A stretch of DNA of 64,000 bases from Deltaproteobacteria bacterium (lineage in GTDB: Bacteria; Desulfobacterota; DSM-4660; Desulfatiglandales; HGW-15). Location: NCBI GenBank assembly GCA_019308745.1, contig JAFDHO010000009.1:1-64000 (forward strand), in the 5' to 3' direction. The notes beneath the pieces were generated by a model that was given only the letters and a program-made list of their open reading frames with translations, ran no database searches and was not told where the DNA came from. The position numbers were made by a program, and so were the translations under genes. Every line of letters begins with the position of its first letter. The first letter of the stretch is position 1. Shown piece by piece: positions 6,949 to 62,837 of this stretch.

Positions 6949-7389
6949 ATGGAAAGGGAAGAACTCCTTCGAAAGGTAACGCTCTTTTCTGTTTTGAAGG
7001 ACTCGGATATCAAAAGCCTGGCCGACTTTTGTGCGGAGAGGTCCTTTAGGGAAGGGCAGACCCTTGTCCAACAAGGAGAACCCGGAGTCGGTCTCTATAT
7101 TATCAAGACAGGAAAGGTCAAAATCGTCAAAAAGACCGCCAGCGGCCAGGATCTCGAAATTGCAATCCTCGGGCCGGGCGAGTTTTTCGGAGAAATGAGC
7201 GTGCTTGATGACGCGCCAAGATCGGCCAGCGTCGCCGCTCTTGAGGATACTAGATGCCTCTTCTTGACGGCCTGGGATTTCAAGGCCAGGATGAAGGTCC
7301 ACCCGGAGATAGCGCTCCAGATCTTGCCCGTTGTGGTGCAGAGATTCAGGGAGACGAATGAAAGGCTCCTGGCCCTGTCCGCCCTCTGA
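6949..7389 (+). CDS. Stand-alone cyclic nucleotide-binding domain protein
   Basis: 146 aa; GQTLVQQGEPGVGLYIIKTGKVKI and phosphate-binding-cassette-like FFGEMSVLDDAPRSASVAA; no HTH follows. Confidence 0.88.
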   Translation: MEREELLRKVTLFSVLKDSDIKSLADFCAERSFREGQTLVQQGEPGVGLYIIKTGKVKIVKKTASGQDLEIAILGPGEFFGEMSVLDDAPRSASVAALEDTRCLFLTAWDFKARMKVHPEIALQILPVVVQRFRETNERLLALSAL

Positions 7390-7434
7390 CCTGGTTCCAT
7401 AACCCTCATCCCGGTCTCACATGAGGAAGGCACT

Positions 7435-7992
7435 TCAAAAGATTATCAGGGGGATGGCCTCATATTTCCTATTCCGGTCCAGGGGAAGCACCCTCAAGGA
7501 ATACTCGAAGTTCTCCTCCTGTGTCTCCTCGTTAACCTGACCTGACAGAGGCACATAATAGAAGGCCAGTTTCATTTCTCCCTTGAGTTCCCACAACTTG
7601 AGTTTGATCTTAATCTTTCCCGCCTTCCACTGGTAGACAGAATGATCTTTGCGCACCTTGATTTTGGGCGTGCCGTACAAGGAGGTGATCTCCTGCCTGA
7701 TCTCACTGAGGGCTTCCCAAGAGTTAAAGCTGATATATCCCGCGAAGAATCTGTCCAGATAGAACCCGTAGACGACCCTGGAAGGGTATCTGCCCTTCAA
7801 CCTGTAGGTGACATCCGTTCGCGCGAAATAGGATACTTTGTCCCTCTGGTGCAGCTCAGAAAGTCCCTCCACCTGAGTTATGCTCTCACCCCAATTGACG
7901 CCCAGAAAGCCCTCCTCCAGGCTGGCCCCGTAGAGGACTCCTCCCCACAGGAGACAGAAAACCGCCAAACCCAGACCTGTTAATCTTTTCAC
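7435..7992 (-). CDS. Hypothetical exported protein
   Basis: GTG start gives VKRLTGLGLAVFCLLWGGVLYGASLEEGFLG (signal peptide); no family recognised; ORF track start 8097 would run into an inverted-repeat arm. Confidence 0.6.
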   Translation of the reverse strand: MKRLTGLGLAVFCLLWGGVLYGASLEEGFLGVNWGESITQVEGLSELHQRDKVSYFARTDVTYRLKGRYPSRVVYGFYLDRFFAGYISFNSWEALSEIRQEITSLYGTPKIKVRKDHSVYQWKAGKIKIKLKLWELKGEMKLAFYYVPLSGQVNEETQEENFEYSLRVLPLDRNRKYEAIPLIIF

Positions 7993-8066
7993 GTCTATCC
8001 GACTCCCTTCGGTCTCAGTCACATATTGACGGGCTGCTGCCCAAAACACAACAGTGATGGCCGTTA

Positions 8067-8283
8067 GCCCCTTGGGAGGTCTTTTCAAAAGGCTCAATCA
8101 AATTCCTCCCAAGACTTTGGCAACGGCACCAAAATTTAATAGCAGCCCCCAATAGCCCCAAAAGATCATCTCCATCGGAGTCTCCGTCTTTTGTGCCTGT
8201 CAGGAGACGACTATGAGGATTATGGGGGCGCATAAAAGGATCAGGACGAATATTGAGCCTTTTGAAAAGACCTCCCAAGGGGC
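8067..8283. repeat. Perfect 32-bp inverted repeat (arms 8067-8098 and 8252-8283) with 153-bp spacer
   Basis: GCCCCTTGGGAGGTCTTTTCAAAAGGCTCAAT versus ATTGAGCCTTTTGAAAAGACCTCCCAAGGGGC. Confidence 0.9.
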
Positions 8284-8686
8284 GCAATACTCCCTTGATA
8301 GTCCCTGTTCGGGGGTAGAACAGACAAAGGGATCTGGGCAACAGCTCGTTGAATATGTGGCTTGAAGACATGACTCTTTGTCCCAAAAAAAATATGATAA
8401 AGCAAGGCAAGGACGTATGCAAGTGGAGATTGATTCTAAATTCAATGCCTGCAGTCCCCCCGCCTCAGGGGCTTGTGGACCTCAAGATGCCCTAGGATCT
8501 GGAGCGGGTTATAATTATCTGAAATCACGGGAATATTGAAATTCTCATTTATCTTTAGCTCCATTTGTGTTATATTCTATTATTTATGGCAGATGAAAGG
8601 GGCCTTAGGGGATTTGGTTTTCGTCCCCTAGGGCTCTGTGGTACCCGCAGAATTCCAGGGAAGACCCTTGATCCCGAGTGTTCACT

Positions 8687-9040
8687 ATGGACCCTAAAGA
8701 TAGAAGAAGACCTCGAATTGAGTCTGAAAACCTTGTGAGTTATACTTTAATAGATAAGGATAACTACCCTATTGGGCAAGGCATTGGAAGGACACTGAAT
8801 GTCTCTGAAGGTGGTATCCTGCTCCAGACACACTCGCCTCTCGATGCTCGAAATACCCTGCTACTTACAATTGGTCTTGAGGATGATCTCACGGAATTCG
8901 AGGGGCAAATCATCTATACCAGGTCCTTGCAAGAGAAGCGTTACGAGCATGGTATCAAGTTTATTCATTTGGATAAGGAGAAGCTGAATTTCCTCAGGCA
9001 GTATATCGTTATGTTCGATGAGCGGAGACGAAACAATTAA
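8687..9040 (+). CDS. PilZ domain protein
   Basis: MDPKDRRRPRIESENLVSYT...GIGRTLNVSEGGILLQT...YEHGIKFIHLD: RxxxR and (D/N)xSxxG PilZ signature. Confidence 0.85.
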   Translation: MDPKDRRRPRIESENLVSYTLIDKDNYPIGQGIGRTLNVSEGGILLQTHSPLDARNTLLLTIGLEDDLTEFEGQIIYTRSLQEKRYEHGIKFIHLDKEKLNFLRQYIVMFDERRRNN

Positions 9041-9067
9041 GCCGGTTATCCTGCATAGTGGAGTCCG

Positions 9068-9973
9068 ATGACTGAGAAAGAGCAAATAAGGTCCCTGTTG
9101 AAGCAAGCGGAAATGTACAGGTCACAGGGCCTCCTTGCGGAAGCCAAAATGAGTTATCTAAAGGCCGTTCGAATTGTCAAGAAAAGCGGGACACTGGCCG
9201 GGAATAAAGACATCATAAGGGCCATCGCAAAAAGGATCCGGGGCATTGAAAAAGAGATCAAAGAAATCAATGAAGACGAGGGAAAACCGGAATTGACCCC
9301 CGAGGTGCAAGCCTTGATCACCAAGTTGTTTGCGTTCTCAAAGGACCATGAGACGGCCGCTATAGAGGGGGCAGTGGCGCTGGCCAAATTCGGTCAATAT
9401 GACAAGGCCCTTGTTGAGTTCAAGAGGTTATTGCAGCTGGGAGTATTACCCCTTGTGGCCGCAAAAAACATCCTCAGGTGTTACTTGAGCCTCTCTTCAC
9501 CCGAATCAGCGGTCAATCAGTTGAAACTATGGATATCGGAGAACGCTTTCTCAAGCCGGTATTTGGTGAACCTGCACAATTTCCTGGGAGATCTCTTTGA
9601 AAAGCGCGGCATAGACATGGAACTCCCCGAAGTGGCGGTTCAACCTTCTGACAACGATTCCTCACCGGACAAGGAGATGGAAATACTTGACATATCCCTG
9701 GTGAGCATAAAACTGGACAATGGGCCTAGGAAAGGCGCTGTCATGGAGTATGATGTCAACTTCCAAACCGGAAACACTATCAGCATTATGATCCCTGCCG
9801 ATCAGAAAGACATTATCGAGGCCTTGAAGCCAGGGACTCGACTTCCTGAGATGCAGTGCTATTCACTGCTGGCCGTATTCAATGGCAGTGGGACGGTCTC
9901 CGGCCTGAACAGGATTGCTTCAGGTCCAAAGAAAGGAAATTACACTCTTGATGTGACGATCAATGGATCCTAG
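9068..9973 (+). CDS. Hypothetical helical-repeat (TPR-like) protein with C-terminal beta-rich domain
   Basis: 301 aa; helical N-terminus MTEKEQIRSLLKQAEMYRSQGLLAEAKMSYLKAVRI, C-terminus VSIKLDNGPRKGAVMEYDVNFQTGNTISIMIPADQ. Confidence 0.6.
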   Translation: MTEKEQIRSLLKQAEMYRSQGLLAEAKMSYLKAVRIVKKSGTLAGNKDIIRAIAKRIRGIEKEIKEINEDEGKPELTPEVQALITKLFAFSKDHETAAIEGAVALAKFGQYDKALVEFKRLLQLGVLPLVAAKNILRCYLSLSSPESAVNQLKLWISENAFSSRYLVNLHNFLGDLFEKRGIDMELPEVAVQPSDNDSSPDKEMEILDISLVSIKLDNGPRKGAVMEYDVNFQTGNTISIMIPADQKDIIEALKPGTRLPEMQCYSLLAVFNGSGTVSGLNRIASGPKKGNYTLDVTINGS

Positions 9974-10165
9974 CTAGCCGGGGGCGACAGGGTGTACTCG
10001 TCTCGCGCACCTTGCCCTAACTCGTGACCTTGACCAAGGGAGGCCCGTGGGCTCGAAACCCGTCACCCCGCTCCGGTTCCGATGATAGGACAGAGACCTG
10101 GGCACCATTCGAGCAATTTCTGTAGCTCGAGATAAAGGACCGAGAGAGGAGACCCATCACATTCT

Positions 10166-10780
10166 ATGGCAATATTCAATGCAAAAGAAAGAGTTATAGA
10201 ATGCAAGATAGTATACTACGGACCGGGAAGAGGCGGCAAGACGACGAACCTGGAGTACATCTTTAAGGCAGGCAAGAAATACGCCACCAGCGACATGATC
10301 TCTATTGATACCAAGGGCGATCGGACCCTTTACTTCGATTTCTTGCCCCTGGGGCTGGGGAAGATAAGGGGGTGCGATGTAAAGGTTCAGCTCTACACGG
10401 TCCCTGGCCAAGTGAAGTATGTATCTACCAGAAAGCTGGTCCTGAAGAATGTGGATGGAATCGTTTTTGTCGCGGACTCCCTTGAAATTCGTAGAAAGGC
10501 AAATATCATGTCGTTGAAGGATCTGCAGCAAAACCTCGCAGAGCAAGACATGAGCATTTTCAAGGTGCCGCTTGTCATGCAGTACAACAAGAGGGATCTC
10601 GCCGAGCAGGGTATACCAGTCCTACCGATGGAGGTCCTTGAGAAGGACCTCAACAGAAAACTTGGGGCACCTTCTTTCCCTGCCAGCGCCTTGAAAGGGA
10701 AAGGAGTGGGTGATACGCTAAAAAAGTGTCTCGTACTCACCTTGCGCCACTTGCAAAACGAGCTTTCTTGGGCTGAGTAG
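10166..10780 (+). CDS. MglA-like small Ras-superfamily GTPase
   Basis: P-loop GPGRGGKTTNLEYIF, LYFDFLPLGLG, YTVPGQVKYVSTRKLVLKNVDGIVFVADS, NKRD motif. Confidence 0.9.
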   Translation: MAIFNAKERVIECKIVYYGPGRGGKTTNLEYIFKAGKKYATSDMISIDTKGDRTLYFDFLPLGLGKIRGCDVKVQLYTVPGQVKYVSTRKLVLKNVDGIVFVADSLEIRRKANIMSLKDLQQNLAEQDMSIFKVPLVMQYNKRDLAEQGIPVLPMEVLEKDLNRKLGAPSFPASALKGKGVGDTLKKCLVLTLRHLQNELSWAE

Positions 10781-10791
10781 TTGAATAAGTT

Positions 10792-11967
10792 ATGTCGAGC
10801 AAAACCGTACTAAGAGGGGAATTGACCTTCCTGGGCCTCCCGGACCTCTTTCAGATCTTGGGCTCGGCCAAAGGCACAGGCCTCCTGAAGATTACCAGTC
10901 GGTTCAACCCCGATACAGCACGGATCTACTTCCTAAACGGAAACCCCGTGAATGGCTCAAACGGGCAGCTGCGCGGCTTGAAGGCCGTTTACTCCCTCTT
11001 TGGATGGACCGAAGGGGCCTTTGAATTCAGTGAAGAAAAGGTGCGGGTTGAAAGAGCCATCAAGAAGAGCAGGATGGAGATCATTCTTGATGCCCTGAAG
11101 ATGTTGGACGACGGAGTGATAAAGAAGGTGGGCCCGCCCGCGGTGTCTGAGGGCACCGTATCTGGAAAAGACGGTCAGGAAAAGGCCCCCTCCCTGCCGG
11201 TTGTCAAAGGACCCCTGCCTGACTACCTCTACATTATAGAAGAAGAGGAATATCGGGAGGGAGAACATATTGTCAAGGAAGGCGGCTTTGGCAAATGGAT
11301 TTGGGTTGTTCTCGAGGGGCAAGTGAAGATCACGAGAGACACGGATAAGGGCCCACTGACCTTAGCCCTGGTTGGAGAAGGGAGCTTCATAGGAACCTTT
11401 TCCTCCTTTCTCTTCAAGGAGACCGCTCGAAGTGCCACCGCTACAACCATGGGGGAGGTCAGGTTGGGCCTATTGGATAATGAACGCCTCGCCGGTGAAT
11501 ACGAGAGCCTGCAATCGGAAGTCCGAAAGCTCCTGATCAGCCTCGATCGGAGACTGAGAAAGATCACGGACAGAGTCGTTGATCTCGCCATGAAGAAAGA
11601 CCCTTTGAGCGCACTCATAAAAGGGAAAAGGGTCATCATGAAGAGGGGCTCCCAAGAGGAGGGGCTTTACATGATAAACCAAGGAGAAGCCCTTGTCGTT
11701 GGGAAATCCTCAAAGCGCCACATCCCTCTCTTGCGCCTCGAAAAAGACGACTTTTTTGGTTCAATCCCCTTCCTGGATTATGCCCAGGAACCGGGCTCCG
11801 CATCCGTCTTGGCCTCGGAGGACCTGGAGATCATCGAGCTTAAGCTCGCGCCCCTTCAAGAGGCATACGAAAAAGTCCCCGAGATTCTGAAGAACCTGGC
11901 AAACAATATCTCCACTAATATCGCCATGACGACCGGTCTGCTTTACCGCATGATAGAACGCGGATAA
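10792..11967 (+). CDS. DUF4388 (PATAN) domain protein with two cNMP-binding-like domains
   Basis: LRGELTFLGLPDLFQILGSAKGTGLLKIT...ARIYFLNGNPVNGSNGQLRGLKAVYSLFGWTEGAFEF; then two double-stranded-beta-helix-like segments (about aa 145-260 and 275-380). Confidence 0.8.
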   Translation: MSSKTVLRGELTFLGLPDLFQILGSAKGTGLLKITSRFNPDTARIYFLNGNPVNGSNGQLRGLKAVYSLFGWTEGAFEFSEEKVRVERAIKKSRMEIILDALKMLDDGVIKKVGPPAVSEGTVSGKDGQEKAPSLPVVKGPLPDYLYIIEEEEYREGEHIVKEGGFGKWIWVVLEGQVKITRDTDKGPLTLALVGEGSFIGTFSSFLFKETARSATATTMGEVRLGLLDNERLAGEYESLQSEVRKLLISLDRRLRKITDRVVDLAMKKDPLSALIKGKRVIMKRGSQEEGLYMINQGEALVVGKSSKRHIPLLRLEKDDFFGSIPFLDYAQEPGSASVLASEDLEIIELKLAPLQEAYEKVPEILKNLANNISTNIAMTTGLLYRMIERG

Positions 11968-12090: not shown

Positions 12091-13017
12091 ATGATCGTTC
12101 AAATCTATGAAATACAGACCCCACATGAGGCGGAGAATTGCGCCCGGCTTGGTGTAGACCATATCGGATGTGTCCTTTTTCCAGAGGAAGAGGGCCAGGA
12201 CCGGAACCTGAAAGAGGTAATGCGGGTTTCAAGGGAAGCTGGATTGAAAAGCAGTCTCTTGCCCCTTTTTCAAGAAAGGGATCTGGTCTGGAGGGCAATC
12301 GAAGATTACTCTCCTGATTATGTTCATTTCTGCCAGAGCCTGACAAACCATCTCGGACAACCCGCGGGAATCGAGGATCTGGTCTCTTTTCAGGCCGACT
12401 TCAAGGAATCATTTCCACAGACAGGCATTATTCGGACCCTGCCTGTTCCAAGAAAGGGATACGGCACCTTTTCCTTCCCCCATCTCGAGGTCCTTCGGTC
12501 TTTGGAGGAAGTGAGCGATTTTTTTCTCCTGGATACATGGATAGAGAAGGAACCTGTAAAGGGCTTCATAGGTATTACCGGGAGGATTTCGAACTGGAGC
12601 GCGGCACGAGAGATCGTGCTCAACAGTAGGATCCCTGTGATCTTGGCAGGAGGGATATCTCCGGAGAATGCCCATGAGGCCGTGTTGAGCGTTGTCCCGG
12701 CAGGCATAGATAGCTGCACCTGGACCAACAGGGTTGACAAGGAAGGAAACCCTATCCGCTTTCAAAAGGACTTCAACAAGGTGGAAGCGCTCGTGAAGGA
12801 GGCCAGGAGGGCGGAGCAGGCCCTCGAAAACATGAAAGACCATATAGAAGAGACGCTCACCCGCCTTAAGGCAGAACTGGCTGAAAGAGAAGCAGCTCTT
12901 CCAGCCCACTCGATTCGCCCCCATCAGTTGCTGCTGATCGAGGACCTTGAAGATCAGATTGCACAAAAGGAAAAAGAGCTTGCCTGCCTTGAATTGGCTG
13001 TCTCCATAGGAAGGTAA
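12091..13017 (+). CDS. Phosphoribosylanthranilate isomerase-like TIM-barrel protein with C-terminal coiled coil
   Basis: EAENCARLGVDHIGCVLFPEE, FFLLDTW, ILAGGISPENAHEAVLSVVPAGIDSCTWTN resemble TrpF; C-terminal Glu/Lys heptad region. Confidence 0.65.
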   Translation: MIVQIYEIQTPHEAENCARLGVDHIGCVLFPEEEGQDRNLKEVMRVSREAGLKSSLLPLFQERDLVWRAIEDYSPDYVHFCQSLTNHLGQPAGIEDLVSFQADFKESFPQTGIIRTLPVPRKGYGTFSFPHLEVLRSLEEVSDFFLLDTWIEKEPVKGFIGITGRISNWSAAREIVLNSRIPVILAGGISPENAHEAVLSVVPAGIDSCTWTNRVDKEGNPIRFQKDFNKVEALVKEARRAEQALENMKDHIEETLTRLKAELAEREAALPAHSIRPHQLLLIEDLEDQIAQKEKELACLELAVSIGR

Positions 13018-17279: not shown

Positions 17280-19925
17280 CTAAAGGGTGTCGAGAAGATC
17301 CAAGTTTCGGTTAAGTTTTTCCAGCCTGATATCCAGCTCCTTTACCCTGTTCCGGACCTTTTCAACGATGTCCGCCGGTGCCCTCTCCAAGAACTGCTTG
17401 TTGGACAGTTTTGCCCTTGCTGCGTCCATCTCTTGACCGATGGTGTTGATCTGTTTGCGCAGCCTGTTTCTCTCTTCTTCGAAATCAATCAGTCCCTTCA
17501 AGAGGACGTGCACCTGGTTTTGCCCATATACTGCCGTGGCTGAGGCTTCCGGTTTCGGTGTGCTTTCCACGACATCCATGCCCTCCACCCCTGCCAAGGT
17601 CTTGATATGAACCCTGTTTTCCTCGATGAGATTCCTATCCCTTTCAAGAGGCGCTTCCACGACAATGTTCACCTTTTTGCCAGGTGGTATGTTCATCTCC
17701 CCCCTTATGTTCCTCACCCCTGTTACCACACCCACAATTGTCTCGATTTCGGTTAGAGCCTCTTCGTCGCTCATGAATTCAGACGGCTCTGGGAAAGAAG
17801 AGACCATGATGCTTCCTTGGGTCCATGGCAATCTTTGCCAAATCTCTTCTGTCACAAAGGGCAAAAAGGGGTGGGCAAGCCGCAAGACTGCTCCTAAGGC
17901 CTTTTGCAATACGGCTTTGGTGGACTTCCTGTGCCCGGCATCTTGACCGTAGAGACCCGGTTTGGCCATCTCGACGTACCAATCACAGAACTCATGCCAA
18001 ATGAATTGGTAGCAGGTATTTGCAGCTTCATTGAAGCGGTATTCATCGATGGCACTGGCCATATCGTGGCTCACCCGACCCAGCCGCGTCAAAATCCATC
18101 TTTCTGGCAAACTTCTGGGGGGTTCGCTTGTAACCTGGTCCTCCTCACCTTCCAGATTCATAAGCACGAAGCGGGCCGAATTCCAGATCTTGTTCACGAA
18201 GTGCCTGTAGCCCTCTATCCTCTCTTCCGATAGCTTTATGTCCCTCCCTTGTGCGGCCAGGGCTGCCAGTGTAAAGCGGAATGCGTCCGTTCCGAACCGG
18301 TCCATCACCTCAAGCGGATCAATGACATTCCCCTTGGATTTGCTCATCTTTTTGCCCTCGGCATCCCGTACCAGGGCATGGATGTAGACATCGTAAAATG
18401 GAACATCACCCATGAAGTGGATTCCCACCATCATCATCCTGGCCACCCAGAAAAAGAGTATGTCAAAGCCCGTGACAAGAACCGACGTAGGATAAAAGGT
18501 CCTGAGTTCTTTTGTCTCCTCGGGCCAGCCCAAAGTGGAAAAGGGCCATAGGGCGGAACTGAACCACGTATCCAGGACATCCCTCTCCTGCCTGAGATCC
18601 TCGCTTCCGCAAGACCGGCACGACGCTGGGGCCTCCATGGCTACGATCACTTCCCCGCATTTGTCACAATACCATGCTGGGATCCGATGCCCCCACCATA
18701 TCTGTCTGGAAACACACCAATCCTTGATATTGTTCATCCACTCGAAGTACACCCCCTCCCAGTTTCCCGGGATGATCCTTGTCCTTCCCTCTTTCACCGC
18801 TTCAACGGCCTTCTCAGCAAGGGGGCCGACTTTTACAAACCATTGCTTCGAAAGGAGAGGTTCAATCATGGTCTTGCATCTATAGCAATGTCCCACTGCA
18901 TGGCGGTAAGGCTCCACTCTTTCCAGCAGCCCGGACTTCTCAAGATCCCGGAGTATCTCCTCCCTGCACTCGAATCTGTCCATCCCTTTGTAGGGCCCGG
19001 CACGGTCATTCATCCGACCTTCCTCGTCAATGACCTTGACCCTCTCGAGATTATGCACGTTGCCTATTTCGAAGTCATTGGGGTCGTGGGCAGGGGTTAT
19101 CTTTAACGCCCCTGTCCCGAATTCCCTGTCCACGTATCTATCAAATATGATGGGGATAGGCTTGTTCAGCAGGGGCAGGAGAACATGGACCCCGGACAGA
19201 TGCTCATACCTCTCGTCCTCCGGATTCACGGCTACCGCAGTGTCCCCAAGAAGGGTCTCAGGCCTTGTGGTGGCCACTGTCACGTGACCATCTCCTCTTT
19301 GGAAGGGGTATCGAATGTAGTACAGGGCACTTTCTCTTTCCTCGTGTTCCACCTCTAAGTCAGCCAGCGCGGTTTGACACCTCGTACACCAATTTATGAT
19401 GTAGTCTCCCCGGTAAACGAGGCCTTCATCGTAGAGATGGACAAAGACCTTTCTTACCGCCCTGGAAAGCCCTTCGTCCATGGTAAAGCGTTCCCTGCTC
19501 CAATCACACGAGCTCCCAAGACGTTTGAGCTGGTTGATGATCATCCCGCCGTATTTTTCCCGCCACTCCCAAACGAGTTCGATGAATCTATCACGTCCGA
19601 TCTTGTGTCGATCCGTCTCCCTGGATGCCAAGTCCTTCTCCACAACGTTTTGGGTTGCAATACCCGCGTGATCGGTCCCTGGCTGCCAGAGCACGTTGTA
19701 GTCCTTCATCCTCTTGTACCTGCAAAGAATGTCCTGCAAGGTATTGTTGAGGGCATGTCCCATGTGCAAAGAACCAGTAACGTTGGGCGGCGGTATCACA
19801 ATGCAGAAGGGTGTCTTGTCCGAATCAAGATCCGGCCGAAAAAGGCCCTCCTGTTCCCAATACCTGTACCAGCGATCTTCCACATCCCTTGGTTCATATG
19901 CTTTGGCCAAAGTCTGTCTCTGCAT
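17280..19925 (-). CDS. valS: Valyl-tRNA synthetase
   Basis: PPPNVTGSLHMGHALNNTLQD, KMSKSKGNVIDPL, C-terminal coiled coil; 881 aa. Confidence 0.98.
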   Translation of the reverse strand: MQRQTLAKAYEPRDVEDRWYRYWEQEGLFRPDLDSDKTPFCIVIPPPNVTGSLHMGHALNNTLQDILCRYKRMKDYNVLWQPGTDHAGIATQNVVEKDLASRETDRHKIGRDRFIELVWEWREKYGGMIINQLKRLGSSCDWSRERFTMDEGLSRAVRKVFVHLYDEGLVYRGDYIINWCTRCQTALADLEVEHEERESALYYIRYPFQRGDGHVTVATTRPETLLGDTAVAVNPEDERYEHLSGVHVLLPLLNKPIPIIFDRYVDREFGTGALKITPAHDPNDFEIGNVHNLERVKVIDEEGRMNDRAGPYKGMDRFECREEILRDLEKSGLLERVEPYRHAVGHCYRCKTMIEPLLSKQWFVKVGPLAEKAVEAVKEGRTRIIPGNWEGVYFEWMNNIKDWCVSRQIWWGHRIPAWYCDKCGEVIVAMEAPASCRSCGSEDLRQERDVLDTWFSSALWPFSTLGWPEETKELRTFYPTSVLVTGFDILFFWVARMMMVGIHFMGDVPFYDVYIHALVRDAEGKKMSKSKGNVIDPLEVMDRFGTDAFRFTLAALAAQGRDIKLSEERIEGYRHFVNKIWNSARFVLMNLEGEEDQVTSEPPRSLPERWILTRLGRVSHDMASAIDEYRFNEAANTCYQFIWHEFCDWYVEMAKPGLYGQDAGHRKSTKAVLQKALGAVLRLAHPFLPFVTEEIWQRLPWTQGSIMVSSFPEPSEFMSDEEALTEIETIVGVVTGVRNIRGEMNIPPGKKVNIVVEAPLERDRNLIEENRVHIKTLAGVEGMDVVESTPKPEASATAVYGQNQVHVLLKGLIDFEEERNRLRKQINTIGQEMDAARAKLSNKQFLERAPADIVEKVRNRVKELDIRLEKLNRNLDLLDTL

Positions 19926-26762: not shown

Positions 26763-29410
<2,648 letters not shown>

Positions 29411-55485: not shown

Positions 55486-57903
55486 TTACCCCTCACGCAA
55501 CCTGGCGCCCGTCTTTGACATGATCCTCTCGATGATATGATCATGGAGCCGGTTTACCTCTTTGCCGTCAAGGGTATGATCTTTCGAGCGATAGCATATC
55601 CTGAAATTGAGCGCCTTTTCCGATGGATCCAGTCCTCTGCCTTCGTATATATCAAAGATGTGGGCAGACTCCACCAGGCCGCTCCCTTCCCCCTTTATAA
55701 CCTTCACGACCTCGGCGCTTTCCAGTCTCCTCCTGACAATCAGGGAAATATCCCTGTAGACGGCGGGATATTTTGGAACGGGTTGGAAGCGTCTTACGGG
55801 TTCTATCTCGCCTGCCAGGACCTGCATGTCCAATTCGAAGAGAAAGACATTGCTCTCCTTTAGATCAATCTTCTCAAGGATCCGACCCGAGATCCGGCCC
55901 AGATTCCCTATGTGGATTCCGGAGCAGTGAATGGAGGCCGAAACCTCACCGTCATAATGGGGCGGCGTGTTCCCCCGCTCAAAGGACACCCTGTCAATGA
56001 GACCCACTGCCCTGAGAAGGGCCTCAATAGATCCTTTCATGTCATAGAAGTCGGCCTTTCTCGGTGGTGCATACCATTCTTGTCTGTTGTAGAGACCTGT
56101 CATCACGGAGGCCAGAAAGGGCCTTTCCACGGGAAGCTCATCTTCCTCCCTTGCAAGGAATATCCTGCCAAGCTCGAAGAGTTTCAAGTTCTCTTCTCCA
56201 TAGGATACATTCAGCTTGACCGCGTCGAGAAGCCCCGGGATGAGAGATGTCCTCATAACAGATTGCTCCAAGCTCAAGGGGTTCATCAACTTCACAAAGG
56301 AGCGGACGGGACTGTCCTCCTCCGCCTCCATGAGGTCCGCGGAATCGGAAGATATGAAACTGTAAGATATGATTTCAGTAAAACCCAGACCTACCATTAT
56401 GTCCTTGACCCTGGCGCTGACCAAATCCTGTGAGTCCTCTTCCTCTTCTGCGGCCTTTATGGGCGGTGCCGTTACCGGAATGCTCTCGAACCCTTCGATC
56501 CTCGAGATCTCCTCTACCAGGTCTACCTCACGTGTGATATCCACTCGAAAGGAAGGGGGGCTTACGCGAATGGTATTGCTGTCAAGCTCCTCCACCGTCA
56601 TCTCCAGGGATCGAAGATACCGCGACATGGTTCTCTGCTCAATGGATGTCCCCAGAAAGGCATTCGTCCTGTCCACCCGTAGATCAATCACAGGAGCCAC
56701 ATAGGGTTTCGGATACCGGTCTATCACTCCCTTCGCGATCCTTCCTCCTGCCAGGCCTTTCATGAGCATTAAGGCCCTCTTGAGCGCCGTCACCGTACCC
56801 TCAATATCGATCCCTCTCTCGAAACGGTAGGATGCCTCCGTGAAAAGGCCGAGCATCTTTGACCCCCTCCTTATGGTGACTGGGTCAAAAAAGGCGCTTT
56901 CCACCAGGACGTTCCTCGATCCTTCAAAGATCTCCGAGTTCAGACCACCCATGATCCCGGCAAGGGCCACGGACCTCTCTCCGTCACAGATCATGAGCAC
57001 CTCCCTGTTGAGGCCTCTGGTCTGCCCGTCTAAGGTGGTGAAGACTTCTCCCTCTTCCGCCCTTCTGACGACGATCCTTTTCTCCCTCAGCCTGTCGTAG
57101 TCAAAGGCATGGAGGGGCTGCCCCATTTCCAGGAGCACGTAGTTCGTTACATCGACTATGTTATTGATGCTCCTGATGCCCGATACAAAAAGGCGGTATC
57201 GTATCCAGAAGGGGGAAGGCCCCAGGTGCACGTCTTGTATGATCCCGGCCGAATAGCGGGGGCAACCCTCCGGATCAATGAGGGTGACATCTGCCAAGTC
57301 CTCTGCCGGGGTGTCCTCCTCCTCCAGTTCAATCGCAGGTTTCTTCAAGGTCTTCCCTGTCAGGGCGACGATTTCCCGCGCAATCCCAATAACCGACGTG
57401 CAGTCCGAACGGTTGGGGGTAATACTGATATCGATTGCCCAGTCCTCGATGTCCGACGCCAAGGGCAGCGGGGTCCCGGGCCTGAGCTCGGGGGACAGGA
57501 TCATGATCCCACTGTGATCATCAGTAAGACCCATTTCATCTTCGGCCAGGAGCATCCCAACAGATTTCTCGCCCCTTATGACACTCTCCTTGACCTTGAT
57601 GCCCCCCGGAAGCCTTGTGCCGGGGGGCGCGAGAGGCACCATCGCTCCGACCTCAAGGTTAGGAGCACTGCATATGACCGGCACCACCCCATCTCCCCTG
57701 TCCACCTCACAAACGTAAAGGCGATCTGCCCGGGGGTGGGGTCTTATGGCCGATATCCTTGCGGTGAGGACATCATGGAGCGAATGACCCACGGGTTCAA
57801 GGGATTCAACCTCAAGGCCGGCAAGGGTCAGCAACTCGGCCAGATCCGAGGGGCTCGCATCAATTTCGACAAACTCCTTCAGCCATTTCAGACTGACGCG
57901 CAT
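55486..57903 (-). CDS. pheT: Phenylalanyl-tRNA synthetase beta subunit
   Basis: MRVSLKWLKEFVEID, ITPNRSDCTSVIGIAREI, NIVDVTNYVLLEMGQPLHAFDYD, C-term FDX-ACB-like domain. Confidence 0.98.
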   Translation of the reverse strand: MRVSLKWLKEFVEIDASPSDLAELLTLAGLEVESLEPVGHSLHDVLTARISAIRPHPRADRLYVCEVDRGDGVVPVICSAPNLEVGAMVPLAPPGTRLPGGIKVKESVIRGEKSVGMLLAEDEMGLTDDHSGIMILSPELRPGTPLPLASDIEDWAIDISITPNRSDCTSVIGIAREIVALTGKTLKKPAIELEEEDTPAEDLADVTLIDPEGCPRYSAGIIQDVHLGPSPFWIRYRLFVSGIRSINNIVDVTNYVLLEMGQPLHAFDYDRLREKRIVVRRAEEGEVFTTLDGQTRGLNREVLMICDGERSVALAGIMGGLNSEIFEGSRNVLVESAFFDPVTIRRGSKMLGLFTEASYRFERGIDIEGTVTALKRALMLMKGLAGGRIAKGVIDRYPKPYVAPVIDLRVDRTNAFLGTSIEQRTMSRYLRSLEMTVEELDSNTIRVSPPSFRVDITREVDLVEEISRIEGFESIPVTAPPIKAAEEEEDSQDLVSARVKDIMVGLGFTEIISYSFISSDSADLMEAEEDSPVRSFVKLMNPLSLEQSVMRTSLIPGLLDAVKLNVSYGEENLKLFELGRIFLAREEDELPVERPFLASVMTGLYNRQEWYAPPRKADFYDMKGSIEALLRAVGLIDRVSFERGNTPPHYDGEVSASIHCSGIHIGNLGRISGRILEKIDLKESNVFLFELDMQVLAGEIEPVRRFQPVPKYPAVYRDISLIVRRRLESAEVVKVIKGEGSGLVESAHIFDIYEGRGLDPSEKALNFRICYRSKDHTLDGKEVNRLHDHIIERIMSKTGARLREG

Positions 57904-58061: not shown

Positions 58062-59093
58062 CTAGAACTGCCCCAAGAAACGGATATCATTTCTAAAGAA
58101 CATATGGATATCATCGATCCCGTACTTGAGCATGGCTATCCTTTCAATTCCCAGTCCAAAGGCAAAACCGGAATACACCTCGGGATCATAATCCACGAAT
58201 TCATACACGGCGGGATCCACCATGCCTGAGCCCAGGATTTCCAGCCATCCGGTTTGTCCGCAGGTCCGGCACCCCTCCCCTTTGCAGATCACGCAACGGA
58301 TATCCACCTCGGCGCTGGGCTCCGTGAAGGGAAAGAAACTGGGCCTGAACCTTAACGCTGTCTTCTTGCCGAACATCTGGTGAACGAAGCTCGTGAGCGT
58401 GCCCTTGAGATCGCCGAAGGTCACTCCCCTATCCACGAGCAACCCCTCGACTTGGTGGAACATGGGGGTGTGCGACACGTCAGAGTCCCTCCTGTAAACC
58501 CTGCCCGGAGCGATTACGGCCACGGGCGGAGGGTGCCTCTCCATAGTCCTGACCTGCATGGGAGATGTGTGGGTCCTCAGCACCACATTTTCGGAAATGT
58601 AGAAGGTGTCCTGCATGTCCCGTGCAGGATGATCCTTGGGGATGTTGAGGGCCTCAAAATTGTAGTAATCCAGTTCCACGTTGGGGCCCTTCACGATTCT
58701 GTAGCCCATCCGTACGAATATTCGGCACACCTCTTCCAGTACCTGTGTAATCGGGTGCAGTTGCCCCCTCGGCGGCTCTCTCCCGGGCAAAGAGACATCC
58801 AAAAAGGCCTTCTCGTCCCTTCGGCCTGGCCCGAAATCTCTCTTTTTCTCCTCGAACAGTCTGTTGAGTTTCTCCTTGAGGCGATTGGCCAGCTTTCCGA
58901 CCTCCGGCCTTTCCTGTGGCGGCAGCCGTCCCAGGTCTCGCATGATGGAGGTTATTTCTCCCTTTTTCCCCAGGTACCTTACCCTGAACTGCTCCAGGGC
59001 CTCGGGGTCTGTCACCCCTTCAAGCTCCCTTGAAGCCTTCCTTTCGATTTCTAGGAGTCTGTCTTTCATCGCGCGAGCCTGGTCCTGTATCAT
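58062..59093 (-). CDS. pheS: Phenylalanyl-tRNA synthetase alpha subunit (start may be internal ATG at 59069)
   Basis: [68 protein letters not shown]. Confidence 0.97.
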
Positions 59094-60470: not shown

Positions 60471-62384
60471 CTACCTCCTTTGTCTGCATTCTTCCCTGAG
60501 AAGATCGATAAACTCTTCTTTACTCATAAAAGGAAGGTTTTCGCCACTCCTCAATCTGGGTGTTACTCCTCCCTTCTCGGTTTCCCTCTCGCCGATAATC
60601 AACATGTAGGGGACCTTTTGAAGCTGGGCTTCCCTGATCTTGAGACCAAGCTTCTCGTTTCTGAAATCTCCCTCTGCCCGGACGCCTTCATCCCTCAACC
60701 GTGTCAAGACGCTTTTCCCGTAAGGGATGCTCCTGTCCGTCACAGTGAGAACAACGGCCTGGACCGGGGCCAGCCAAACCGGGAAAGCCCCCCCATAATG
60801 CTCTATCAAGACACCTATGAACCTCTCCAGGGCCCCAAGGATGACTCGATGGATCATAGCGGGTCTGCGCCTTTCTCCATCCCTGTCTATGAAGTGGAGG
60901 TTGAACCTCTCCGGGAGCGTAAAATCGCACTGGATAGTCGCGCACTGCCATTTCCTTTCCAGGGCGTCCTTGAGCTTTACATCGATTTTCGGCCCATAGA
61001 AGGCCCCCTCGCCCTCATTGATCTGATATGGCAGACCGCTGTCTTCCATCGCACTCATAAGTGCCTTTGTGGCCCGATCCCAGTCCTCATGGGAACCTAT
61101 TGATTTCTTCGGCCTGGTGCTGATTTCCAACTCGTAATCAAAGCGGAAGACGGCCATCACGTCCCTGACAAAATTCAGCACGCCTTTGATCTCCTCGTCC
61201 AGCTGTTGAGGCGTACACAGGATGTGGGCATCGTCTTGGGTGAATTCCCTGACCCTGAGGAGGCCATGCAGGACACCGGAACGTTCGTGCCTGTGAACCA
61301 GCCCCAATTCGAAATATCTCTTCGGAAGGTCCCTGTAGCTCCTTATCTTGGAGGCAAATATGAGCATGTGGGCCAGGCAATTCATGGGTTTGATACCGTA
61401 GGATTGCTTGTCTATCTCCGTGAAGTACATATTCTCACGGTAGTTTTCAAAGTGCCCCGATCTTTTCCACAGTTCCGTCTTCAAGATCTGGGGCCCCTTG
61501 ACCAGTTCGTACCCTCTTTTCAGGTGCTCCTCAATTTCAAAATCCTCCAGGATATGGCGGAGCATTGCCCCCTTTGGATGCCAAATAACCATCCCAGCAC
61601 CAACTTCCTCGTGGGTGCTGAAGAGCTCAAGCTGGTGGCCCAACTTGACGTGATCCCTTCTTCGTGCCTCCTCGATCTTCTTGACATAGGCCTTGAGGGA
61701 CTTCTGATCAGGAAAGGCGATACCGTAAATCCTGCTAAGCATGGGCCTGTTTTCATCACCACGCCAATAGGCCCCCGCAACTTTGGTAAGCCGAAAGGCC
61801 TTGATCTTGCCACTAGAAGGGATATGGGGACCCCTGCAAAGATCGGTGAAACTCCCTTGTCTGTAAAGCGTTACCTTATCTTGGCCCAGATCGTCTATCA
61901 CCTCAATCTTGTAGTCTTCTCCTTGCTCCTTGAAGAAATCAACGGCTTCCTGACTGCTCACCTCTTTTCTCTCAAAGGGCAGATCAGCCTTGATGATTTC
62001 CTTCATCTTGGCCTCAATCCCGGGAAGGTCTTCTTCTCTGAAGGGCCTTTCGTAATCGAAATCATAATAGAAACCATTTTCAATGGCAGGACCGATGGTG
62101 ACCTTCACCCCGGGGAAGAGTTCCTTTACCGCCAGCGCCATTACGTGGGCTGTACTGTGGCGCAGTATTTCAGTCCCCTCATCGGATTCCAGATAGATGG
62201 GTTCGATCTCAGCCTTGGGATTTATCTTGGTGGAGAGATCACGGATCTCTCCATTGATCCTTAGGGCTACGACCTTGTCCAAATCAGGTACATTGAGCTT
62301 TCTCAACGCGTCGAGGCCTGTAAGGTCATCAGCCTTCACGGTCTCGGGAGGTTTTCCCTTTAGATTTATCTCGAAAGTCTTCAT
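60471..62384 (-). CDS. thrS: Threonyl-tRNA synthetase
   Basis: TGS and catalytic domains: [77 protein letters not shown]; internal [13 protein letters not shown]. Confidence 0.97.
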
Positions 62385-62837
62385 GGAACCAGGTCTCAAA
62401 CAAAATAAGGCATCCAAAGTATTACGGGACGTTACTTAGATGCCTCTCTAGGATATTATCTGCAGTTTTTTTGCCCTGTTCGTGCACCTTTCCTTTATTG
62501 CCTGCCCAACACCCAGAGATCTCCGAAAGTGCCCCCTTGTTCGTGATTCAAATGAAAATCATGTCCTGCTCCCCGGGAGGATACTCTCCGGTCTCTCCGG
62601 ATCAACATAGATAAGATCCAGTAATAATTGATATCTTTTTCTGTCTTTATCCAAAATAGAGCGAATTATTGCACAGAGATTTGCTTTGGCCCTAAATTAA
62701 GCGCTCTTTTGAGAACCGAATTCTTTCAGCTGGGAATAATTTCCTTTAGATTCCCTGGACTTTTTATGTCTTTATTTTTATTATTCATTTTGGTTTTGTT
62801 GTCAATAAAAAATTGATGAGCAACCCATACTCAAACA

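Follow-up and report, generated by a model that had tools for sequence, protein, structure and literature searches.

A conserved PilZ-TPR-MglA-PATAN/cNMP gene unit of sulfate-reducing bacteria as a candidate cyclic di-GMP-responsive switch for the type IV pilus motor

The 64,000-nucleotide stretch of contig JAFDHO010000009.1 analyzed here (referred to as the window; Deltaproteobacteria bacterium, GenBank assembly GCA_019308745.1) carries, at positions 8678-11967, a conserved unit of four signaling genes. These genes encode a PilZ protein, a tetratricopeptide repeat (TPR) protein with a C-terminal beta-barrel, a Ras-like GTPase of the MglA family, and a protein that combines a PATAN (DUF4388) domain with two cyclic nucleotide-binding (cNMP)-type domains (PATAN-cNMP2). 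The last three genes keep their order in a wide range of relatives, the sequence motifs of the GTPase are intact, most unit-bearing genomes of the window's family have no detectable copy of the Roadblock-type protein MglB, on which MglA ordinarily depends, and in some relatives the TPR domain is fused to a PilB/GspE-type ATPase encoded next to mglA. With moderate confidence, we interpret this unit as a cyclic di-GMP (c-di-GMP)-responsive MglA switch that would act on the type IV pilus extension motor, would be expressed from a single operon, and would usually operate without MglB.

Extent and conservation of the unit

All six open reading frames that an earlier note, made from the sequence alone, had reported for this region are present at their reported positions, and the ORF list, Pfam, and phmmer comparisons confirmed its domain assignments (Table 1). 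That note had drawn a module of five genes. The PilZ gene and the 9068-11967 trio retain their place in it on the evidence of synteny, whereas the stand-alone cNMP gene at 6949, which is not a consistent neighbor of the unit in relatives and is missing from it there, had to be removed, leaving a conserved unit that is smaller than first drawn. This gene is separated from the unit by a minus-strand gene and a high-copy element resembling a miniature inverted-repeat transposable element (MITE). Scanning for promoters and terminators proved useless for setting the limits of the operon: promoter-like sites numbered 10 (expected, 4.0 ± 2.1), as did terminators (expected, 7.0 ± 2.8).

Table 1. Genes and domains of the conserved unit and of its upstream flank
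Feature	Positions	Strand	Basis
Stand-alone cNMP gene	6949-7389	+	Pfam cNMP_binding, 93 bits
220-aa protein, exported according to the earlier note	7435-8097	-	No significant Pfam or NCBIfam match
PilZ protein, 120 aa, candidate c-di-GMP receptor	8678-9040	+	Pfam PF07238, 34 bits (cutoff, 22.5)
TPR protein, 301 aa, candidate MglA effector	9068-9973	+	Subthreshold Pfam TPR matches, residues 1-160 only
C-terminal beta-barrel domain of the TPR protein	9674-9970	+	AlphaFold2 strands 209-299
MglA Group 1 GTPase, 204 aa	10166-10780	+	Pfam Arf/Ras-type; phmmer to MglA structures
PATAN-cNMP-cNMP protein, 391 aa	10792-11967	+	Pfam DUF4388, 63 bits, and two cNMP_binding stretches (82 bits)
PATAN/DUF4388 domain, candidate PilB-binding or MglA-regulating domain	10792-11145	+	AlphaFold2 model

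A search of 84,980 species genomes with an alignment of the TPR protein alone yielded 80 loci, whose record titles name Desulfobacterales, Desulfobacteraceae, single genera of Desulfobacterales, unclassified Deltaproteobacteria, and one Proteobacteria bin. The TPR gene is directly followed by an MglA gene in 71 of these loci; because the loci were picked by the TPR protein only, this amounts to conservation far beyond chance. The full order TPR-MglA-PATAN/cNMP2 is seen in 68 loci, and in 6 others the TPR and PATAN-cNMP2 genes occur without an MglA gene between them. The TPR proteins of the 80 loci form 64 clusters at 80% identity and the median gap between the MglA and PATAN genes is 9 bp over the 68 loci (11 bp in the window), so the synteny is not a resampling of close strains. 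The trio is conserved in Desulfobacterales and is not a peculiarity of a single genome, which bears out the earlier view of the TPR and PATAN proteins as natural partners of MglA. The assignment of the PilZ gene to the same signaling unit also stands: of the 80 loci, 47 have it next to the trio in the same orientation, with 5 sharing the upstream placement of the window and 42 placing it downstream. A single locus of the 80 encodes MglB. At E ≤ 1e-20, the TPR protein was detected in 14 of 395 genomes drawn evenly from the phylum; the MglA-PATAN/cNMP2 pair is present in 15 of the 17 genomes of the window's family. No description of this operon was found in the literature searched, which holds few subscription journals, and a plasmid collection searched for MglA gave one match, from Deinococcus, which was uninformative.

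Some variation was seen around these genes. In-frame MglA-PATAN cases occur among related loci. In Desulfobacterales, 36 of the 80 loci (L146-L225; e.g., L221:7800-8774) encode a protein with a ParB_N domain close to the unit, and the wider context of these ParB_N-bearing loci includes the uvrB, uvrC, and malate dehydrogenase genes, all three named by eye. In a third arrangement, the MglA gene is directly followed by a PilZ gene, with no TPR or PATAN-cNMP2 gene beside them (L114:3517-4712, L117:430-1548, and L121:3620-4746).

The MglA GTPase and the PilZ protein

The GTPase encoded in the window aligns end to end with the MglA structures from Myxococcus and Thermus (phmmer; E = 4e-53 for the Myxococcus entry 6hjh). 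Group 1 of the MglA family is defined by its P-loop, arginine finger, TVPGQ, and NKxD motifs (Wuichet and Sogaard-Andersen 2014, PMC4316618). The window protein has the P-loop GPGRGGKTT, the stretch KGDRTLYFDF with the GDRT arginine finger, which adjoins the G2 threonine in agreement with that definition, the stretch LYTVPGQVKY with TVPGQ as G3, and NKRD; judged by these motifs, it is a catalytically intact Group 1 member. The same features hold for its counterparts: among 83 unit-type MglA sequences, all of the commonest G3 variants contain TVPGQ and all of the commonest variants at the arginine finger contain GDRT. In a tree of 126 MglA sequences, a single change separates the unit-type (83) from the MglB-coupled (28) proteins, a count that takes in these two labels only and comes from a short tree search.

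All 53 distinct PilZ proteins contain both the RxxxR and the [DN]xSxxG motif (RxxxR and NxSxxG in the window), which makes c-di-GMP, bound by PilZ, a likely input of the unit. Myxococcus MglA changes its localization when either of two PilZ proteins, PlpA or PixA, is lacking (PMC8316039).

The PATAN-cNMP2 protein

The PATAN domain clearly passes the Pfam threshold (PF14332; 63.4 bits with a cutoff of 25). PATAN genes are mentioned as occasional neighbors of Group 1 and Group 5 mglA in the survey of PMC4316618 (with Makarova 2006 as cited there), and in cyanobacteria PATAN domains are reported to bind PilB directly (PMC10519157, PMC7690835). The two cNMP domains were compared in an alignment of 34 sequences, with residue counts on 83. 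In the first, Arg213 is kept in all 83 sequences and the cAMP-pocket Glu at position 202 in none; the second has no conserved Arg, and Glu is not among the five commonest residues at its position 324. These counts do not fit the CRP-type cAMP phosphate-binding cassette (GE and R(S/T)A). Because the pocket Glu is gone from domain 1 and domain 2 has no conserved Arg, the idea of the earlier note that this protein senses cyclic nucleotides is weak and was not supported.

The AlphaFold2 model of the PATAN domain (predicted local distance difference test [pLDDT] score, 89.8; predicted template modeling [pTM] score, 0.81) was compared with the PDB by Foldseek; no match fell under E 0.2, and the 50 matches listed include no Roadblock entry, leaving the idea of PATAN as a disguised Roadblock/MglB domain unsupported. 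A regulator with a different fold is another matter. PATAN-cNMP2 or the TPR protein might be a non-Roadblock GTPase-activating protein (GAP) or guanine nucleotide exchange factor (GEF) for MglA, a tentative possibility that is compatible with the proposed switch. PATAN-cNMP2 is the gene most tightly coupled to mglA, as the short gap in the 68 loci indicates; MglA-PATAN pairs with no TPR gene seen beside them are found at L070, L082, L084, L094, and L096 (L082 and L084 lie at the start of their contigs, so that the gene upstream is not visible); and MglA keeps its catalytic residues while MglB is absent. These features have to be set against the 6 loci in which the TPR and PATAN-cNMP2 genes stand together without MglA between them, the lack of a Roadblock-like fold in the PATAN model, and the role that PATAN is already known to have at the pilus motor. 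More doubtful is the specific version in which PATAN-cNMP2 or the TPR/beta-barrel protein replaces MglB, so that c-di-GMP, via PilZ, would gate a Ras-like pilus-motor switch through a structurally novel type of GAP or GEF.

The TPR/beta-barrel protein and the pilus motor

An alignment of 22 homologs and the AlphaFold2 model place helical repeats at approximately residues 1 to 180 of the TPR protein and a beta-barrel at approximately residues 203 to 301. The barrel was missing from the earlier note. In the model (pLDDT, 81.7; pTM, 0.56), nine main helices are followed by the barrel. Foldseek returned TPR matches, and the best non-TPR match was the c-di-GMP-binding protein MrkH (5ked; E = 3.5e-3, root mean square deviation of 4.1 over 101 columns). 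Because this match is weak, the barrel, which has no evident c-di-GMP motif, is PilZ-like at best; no PilZ family is among the 25 Pfam families most often matched by the 22 homologs.

In relatives, TPR-MshEN-T2SSE ATPases of ~780 to 800 aa are encoded beside MglA; their N-terminus is homologous to the TPR domain and scores 32 to 71 bits with the TPR profile over ~190 residues. The best NCBIfam model for these ATPases is PilB, at a score under its cutoff (497 of 676 bits), followed by GspE. For comparison, natural TPR proteins in the PDB reach at most ~19 bits; designed and repeat-rich pentatricopeptide repeat chains score higher only via many short stretches, and the PDB matches to the profile were rejected as mainly repeat artifacts. 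In genome G074 (L097), the gene for the TPR-ATPase is divergent from the MglA-PATAN/cNMP2 pair, and at L115, L122, and L130 a free protein with TPR and barrel domains sits in the slot of the TPR-ATPase. The window's own genome (G000) encodes, on contig C354, a related ATPase with a matching N-terminal region, whose TPR part is weak (14 bits with the TPR profile).

The TPR-fused PilB/GspE-type ATPases beside mglA, for which no description was found in the literature searched, are encoded at L104:4968-7310, L097:4857-7274, L110:10662-13049, and L127:3852-6251. Most genomes of the family also encode a second class of PilB-like ATPase, with an N-terminus of ~200 residues that is GAF-like by eye (e.g., G005:C115, G009:C25, and G000:C261; L226, L229, and L227).

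With TPR-ATPase fusions beside MglA and the direct PATAN-PilB binding reported in cyanobacteria, the pilus motor, which was absent from the earlier note, is the most likely target of the unit; what is known of SgmX and of the Bdellovibrio MglA hub (see below), as well as of PlpA and PixA, agrees with this. The ATPases fall under the curated PilB cutoff and also match GspE, and the neighbors of the unit in relatives (uvrBC, mdh, and the gene for the ParB_N protein) are unrelated to pili, as they might be if the unit controlled secretion, exopolysaccharide, or some other non-pilus process through a GspE-like or other target. We regard this as unlikely, as PilB is nevertheless the best-scoring family for the TPR-fused ATPases and the precedents for the MglA-TPR, PATAN-PilB, and PilZ-MglA links all concern pilus motility or polarity.

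Distribution of MglB

No Robl or MglB match was found within four genes of the window mglA or anywhere in the window. The earlier observation that no MglB is visible is thus correct for the window but not for the genome as a whole, which contains one Roadblock/MglB gene (contig C38:6826-7212; 208 bits). It adjoins a gene for a second MglA, 59% identical to that of the window, in a longer mgl locus (L006) that includes a Cache-like protein, a REC-PATAN protein, and others. Its relatives encode MglB and an MglA of the second type, frequently along with a TPR protein or a TPR-ATPase. The possibility that C38 is a contaminating contig was rejected, as its tetranucleotide composition (r = 0.967) and GC content (0.518) match those of the window. 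A 118-aa protein with no Pfam match, Roadblock-like by eye, is encoded at L006:12600-12956 and has homologs in other mglBA loci; it is a recurrent member of the MglB-type mgl locus and is not seen in the trio loci.

A profile built from 24 order- and phylum-level MglBs was run, in addition to Pfam Robl_LC7, on 118 related genomes. Within the window's family, MglB was found only in G000, in G006, and, as a fragment, in G015. By both searches, 12 of the 15 unit-bearing family genomes, all of them draft assemblies, have no detectable MglB; 8 of these 12 are at least 90% complete, and 7 of those 8 have no Roadblock match of any kind. Missing MglB could possibly reflect the draft state of the assemblies or divergent GAPs.

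An MglB elsewhere in the genome, which the earlier note would have counted against its proposal, thus exists on paper in G000, and MglB is also found in other unit-bearing genomes, such as G006, G049, G058, and G067. The MglA of the unit could then belong to an ordinary MglA/MglB system with scattered genes and be controlled in trans by the C38 protein. We consider this quite unlikely: the C38 MglB sits next to its own MglA, the majority of unit-bearing family genomes show no MglB, and a single change in the tree parts the unit-type from the MglB-coupled MglA. As for the unit genes being unrelated neighbors, as the flanking genes of the window are, the chance is negligible given synteny over 64 sequence clusters and the presence of PilZ on either side of the trio.

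Proposed mechanism

In the proposed scheme, the four-gene operon would encode a small-GTPase switch for a PilB/GspE-type ATPase, with MglA as the switch itself. MglA-GTP would bind the TPR protein, which, in an SgmX-like manner, may pass the signal to the motor via a TPR domain of the type found fused to a PilB-type ATPase in some relatives. PATAN-cNMP2 would serve as a second adaptor, its degenerate cNMP domains being more likely structural elements, or receptors of another ligand, than cAMP sensors, and PilZ would set the response to c-di-GMP. As the unit is usually without MglB, GTP hydrolysis would depend either on the arginine finger and glutamine of MglA itself or on some regulator that is not of the Roadblock type.

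Several points weigh against this scheme. The C38 MglB, encoded on a contig that matches the window in composition, might work in trans. A resemblance between TPR domains may be generic, even if no natural TPR protein in the PDB exceeds ~19 bits with the TPR profile. The unit itself holds no PilB gene, and PilB-like ATPases are encoded in every genome checked, so their co-occurrence with the unit does not discriminate. Finally, the PATAN proteins known to bind PilB are response regulators of cyanobacteria, and PATAN-cNMP proteins are not among them.

Comparison with known systems

The closest parallels come from Myxococcus xanthus and Bdellovibrio. SgmX of M. xanthus is a TPR protein that binds MglA-GTP through its TPRs and localizes PilB (PMC7519303, PMC7668184); the scheme proposed here likewise has a Group 1 MglA and a TPR partner acting on the pilus extension motor. 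However, SgmX is described as a 1,060-aa all-TPR protein with 14 repeats, encoded in a gene cluster with tamAB-like genes, whereas the window protein has 301 aa, including the beta-barrel (a contrast in size and domain makeup, no direct comparison of the two sequences having been made), and is encoded in an mglA operon together with PilZ and PATAN-cNMP2 but without MglB. In Bdellovibrio, where MglB has been lost, MglA binds a TPR protein, which in turn makes contact with a c-di-GMP receptor (PMC3983030). Like the proposed switch, this MglA-Bd2492 (TPR)-RomR-CdgA hub lacks MglB, includes a small TPR partner, and is connected with a c-di-GMP receptor and with type IV pili; in contrast, its genes are scattered, with bd2492 in a tamAB operon, and its MglA has S21, where the window MglA keeps G21.

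Cyanobacterial PixE, PixG, PilG, and TaxP2 likewise use PATAN as an adaptor that acts on PilB (PMC10519157, PMC7690835), but in these regulators PATAN is fused to a receiver domain and not to two degenerate cNMP domains. The canonical mglBA locus, represented in the same genome by the C38 locus, resembles the unit in having MglA and a PATAN protein (REC-PATAN), to which relatives add a TPR protein or a TPR-PilB protein; it differs in its MglB, its Cache-like sensor, the fusion of PATAN to REC, and the position of its MglA on the other side of the tree. Group 1 mglA neighborhoods were found to be widely variable in the survey of PMC4316618, in contrast to the fixed PilZ-TPR-MglA-PATAN/cNMP2 set without MglB seen here. 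The parts of the unit all have precedents (MglA near PATAN, MglA with TPR, and orphan MglA), so the unit is best seen as a further variant of MglA polarity modules.

Other features of the window

The MITE-like element upstream of the unit, at 8067-8283, lies between the minus-strand gene and the PilZ gene and has perfect 32-bp inverted repeats located 153 bp apart. Approximately 40 near-full-length copies, with 81 to 100% identity, are found genome-wide. Downstream of the unit, the plus-strand gene at 12091-13017 encodes a phosphoribosylanthranilate (PRA) isomerase-like barrel protein with an extra C-terminal segment, which scores far under the curated TrpF cutoffs. The window also contains five aminoacyl-tRNA synthetase genes, all on the minus strand, whose types were assigned by their domains: Val-type (17280-19925), Ser (28115-29401), Phe beta (55486-57903), Phe alpha (58062-59093), and Thr-type (60471-62417).

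Implications

Work on MglA rests on a few model bacteria, where MglB plays a central part and the genes for the partners of MglA are scattered. Here, MglA is packaged in a fixed operon with a candidate TPR effector, a PATAN adaptor, and a c-di-GMP receptor, and this operon persists in genomes without detectable MglB. It thereby opens to experiment the way in which MglA is switched when MglB is missing and the route by which c-di-GMP acts on MglA and the pilus. A direct chain from MglA via TPR to PilB, inferred from separate proteins in Myxococcus, gains support from the TPR-PilB fusions beside mglA.

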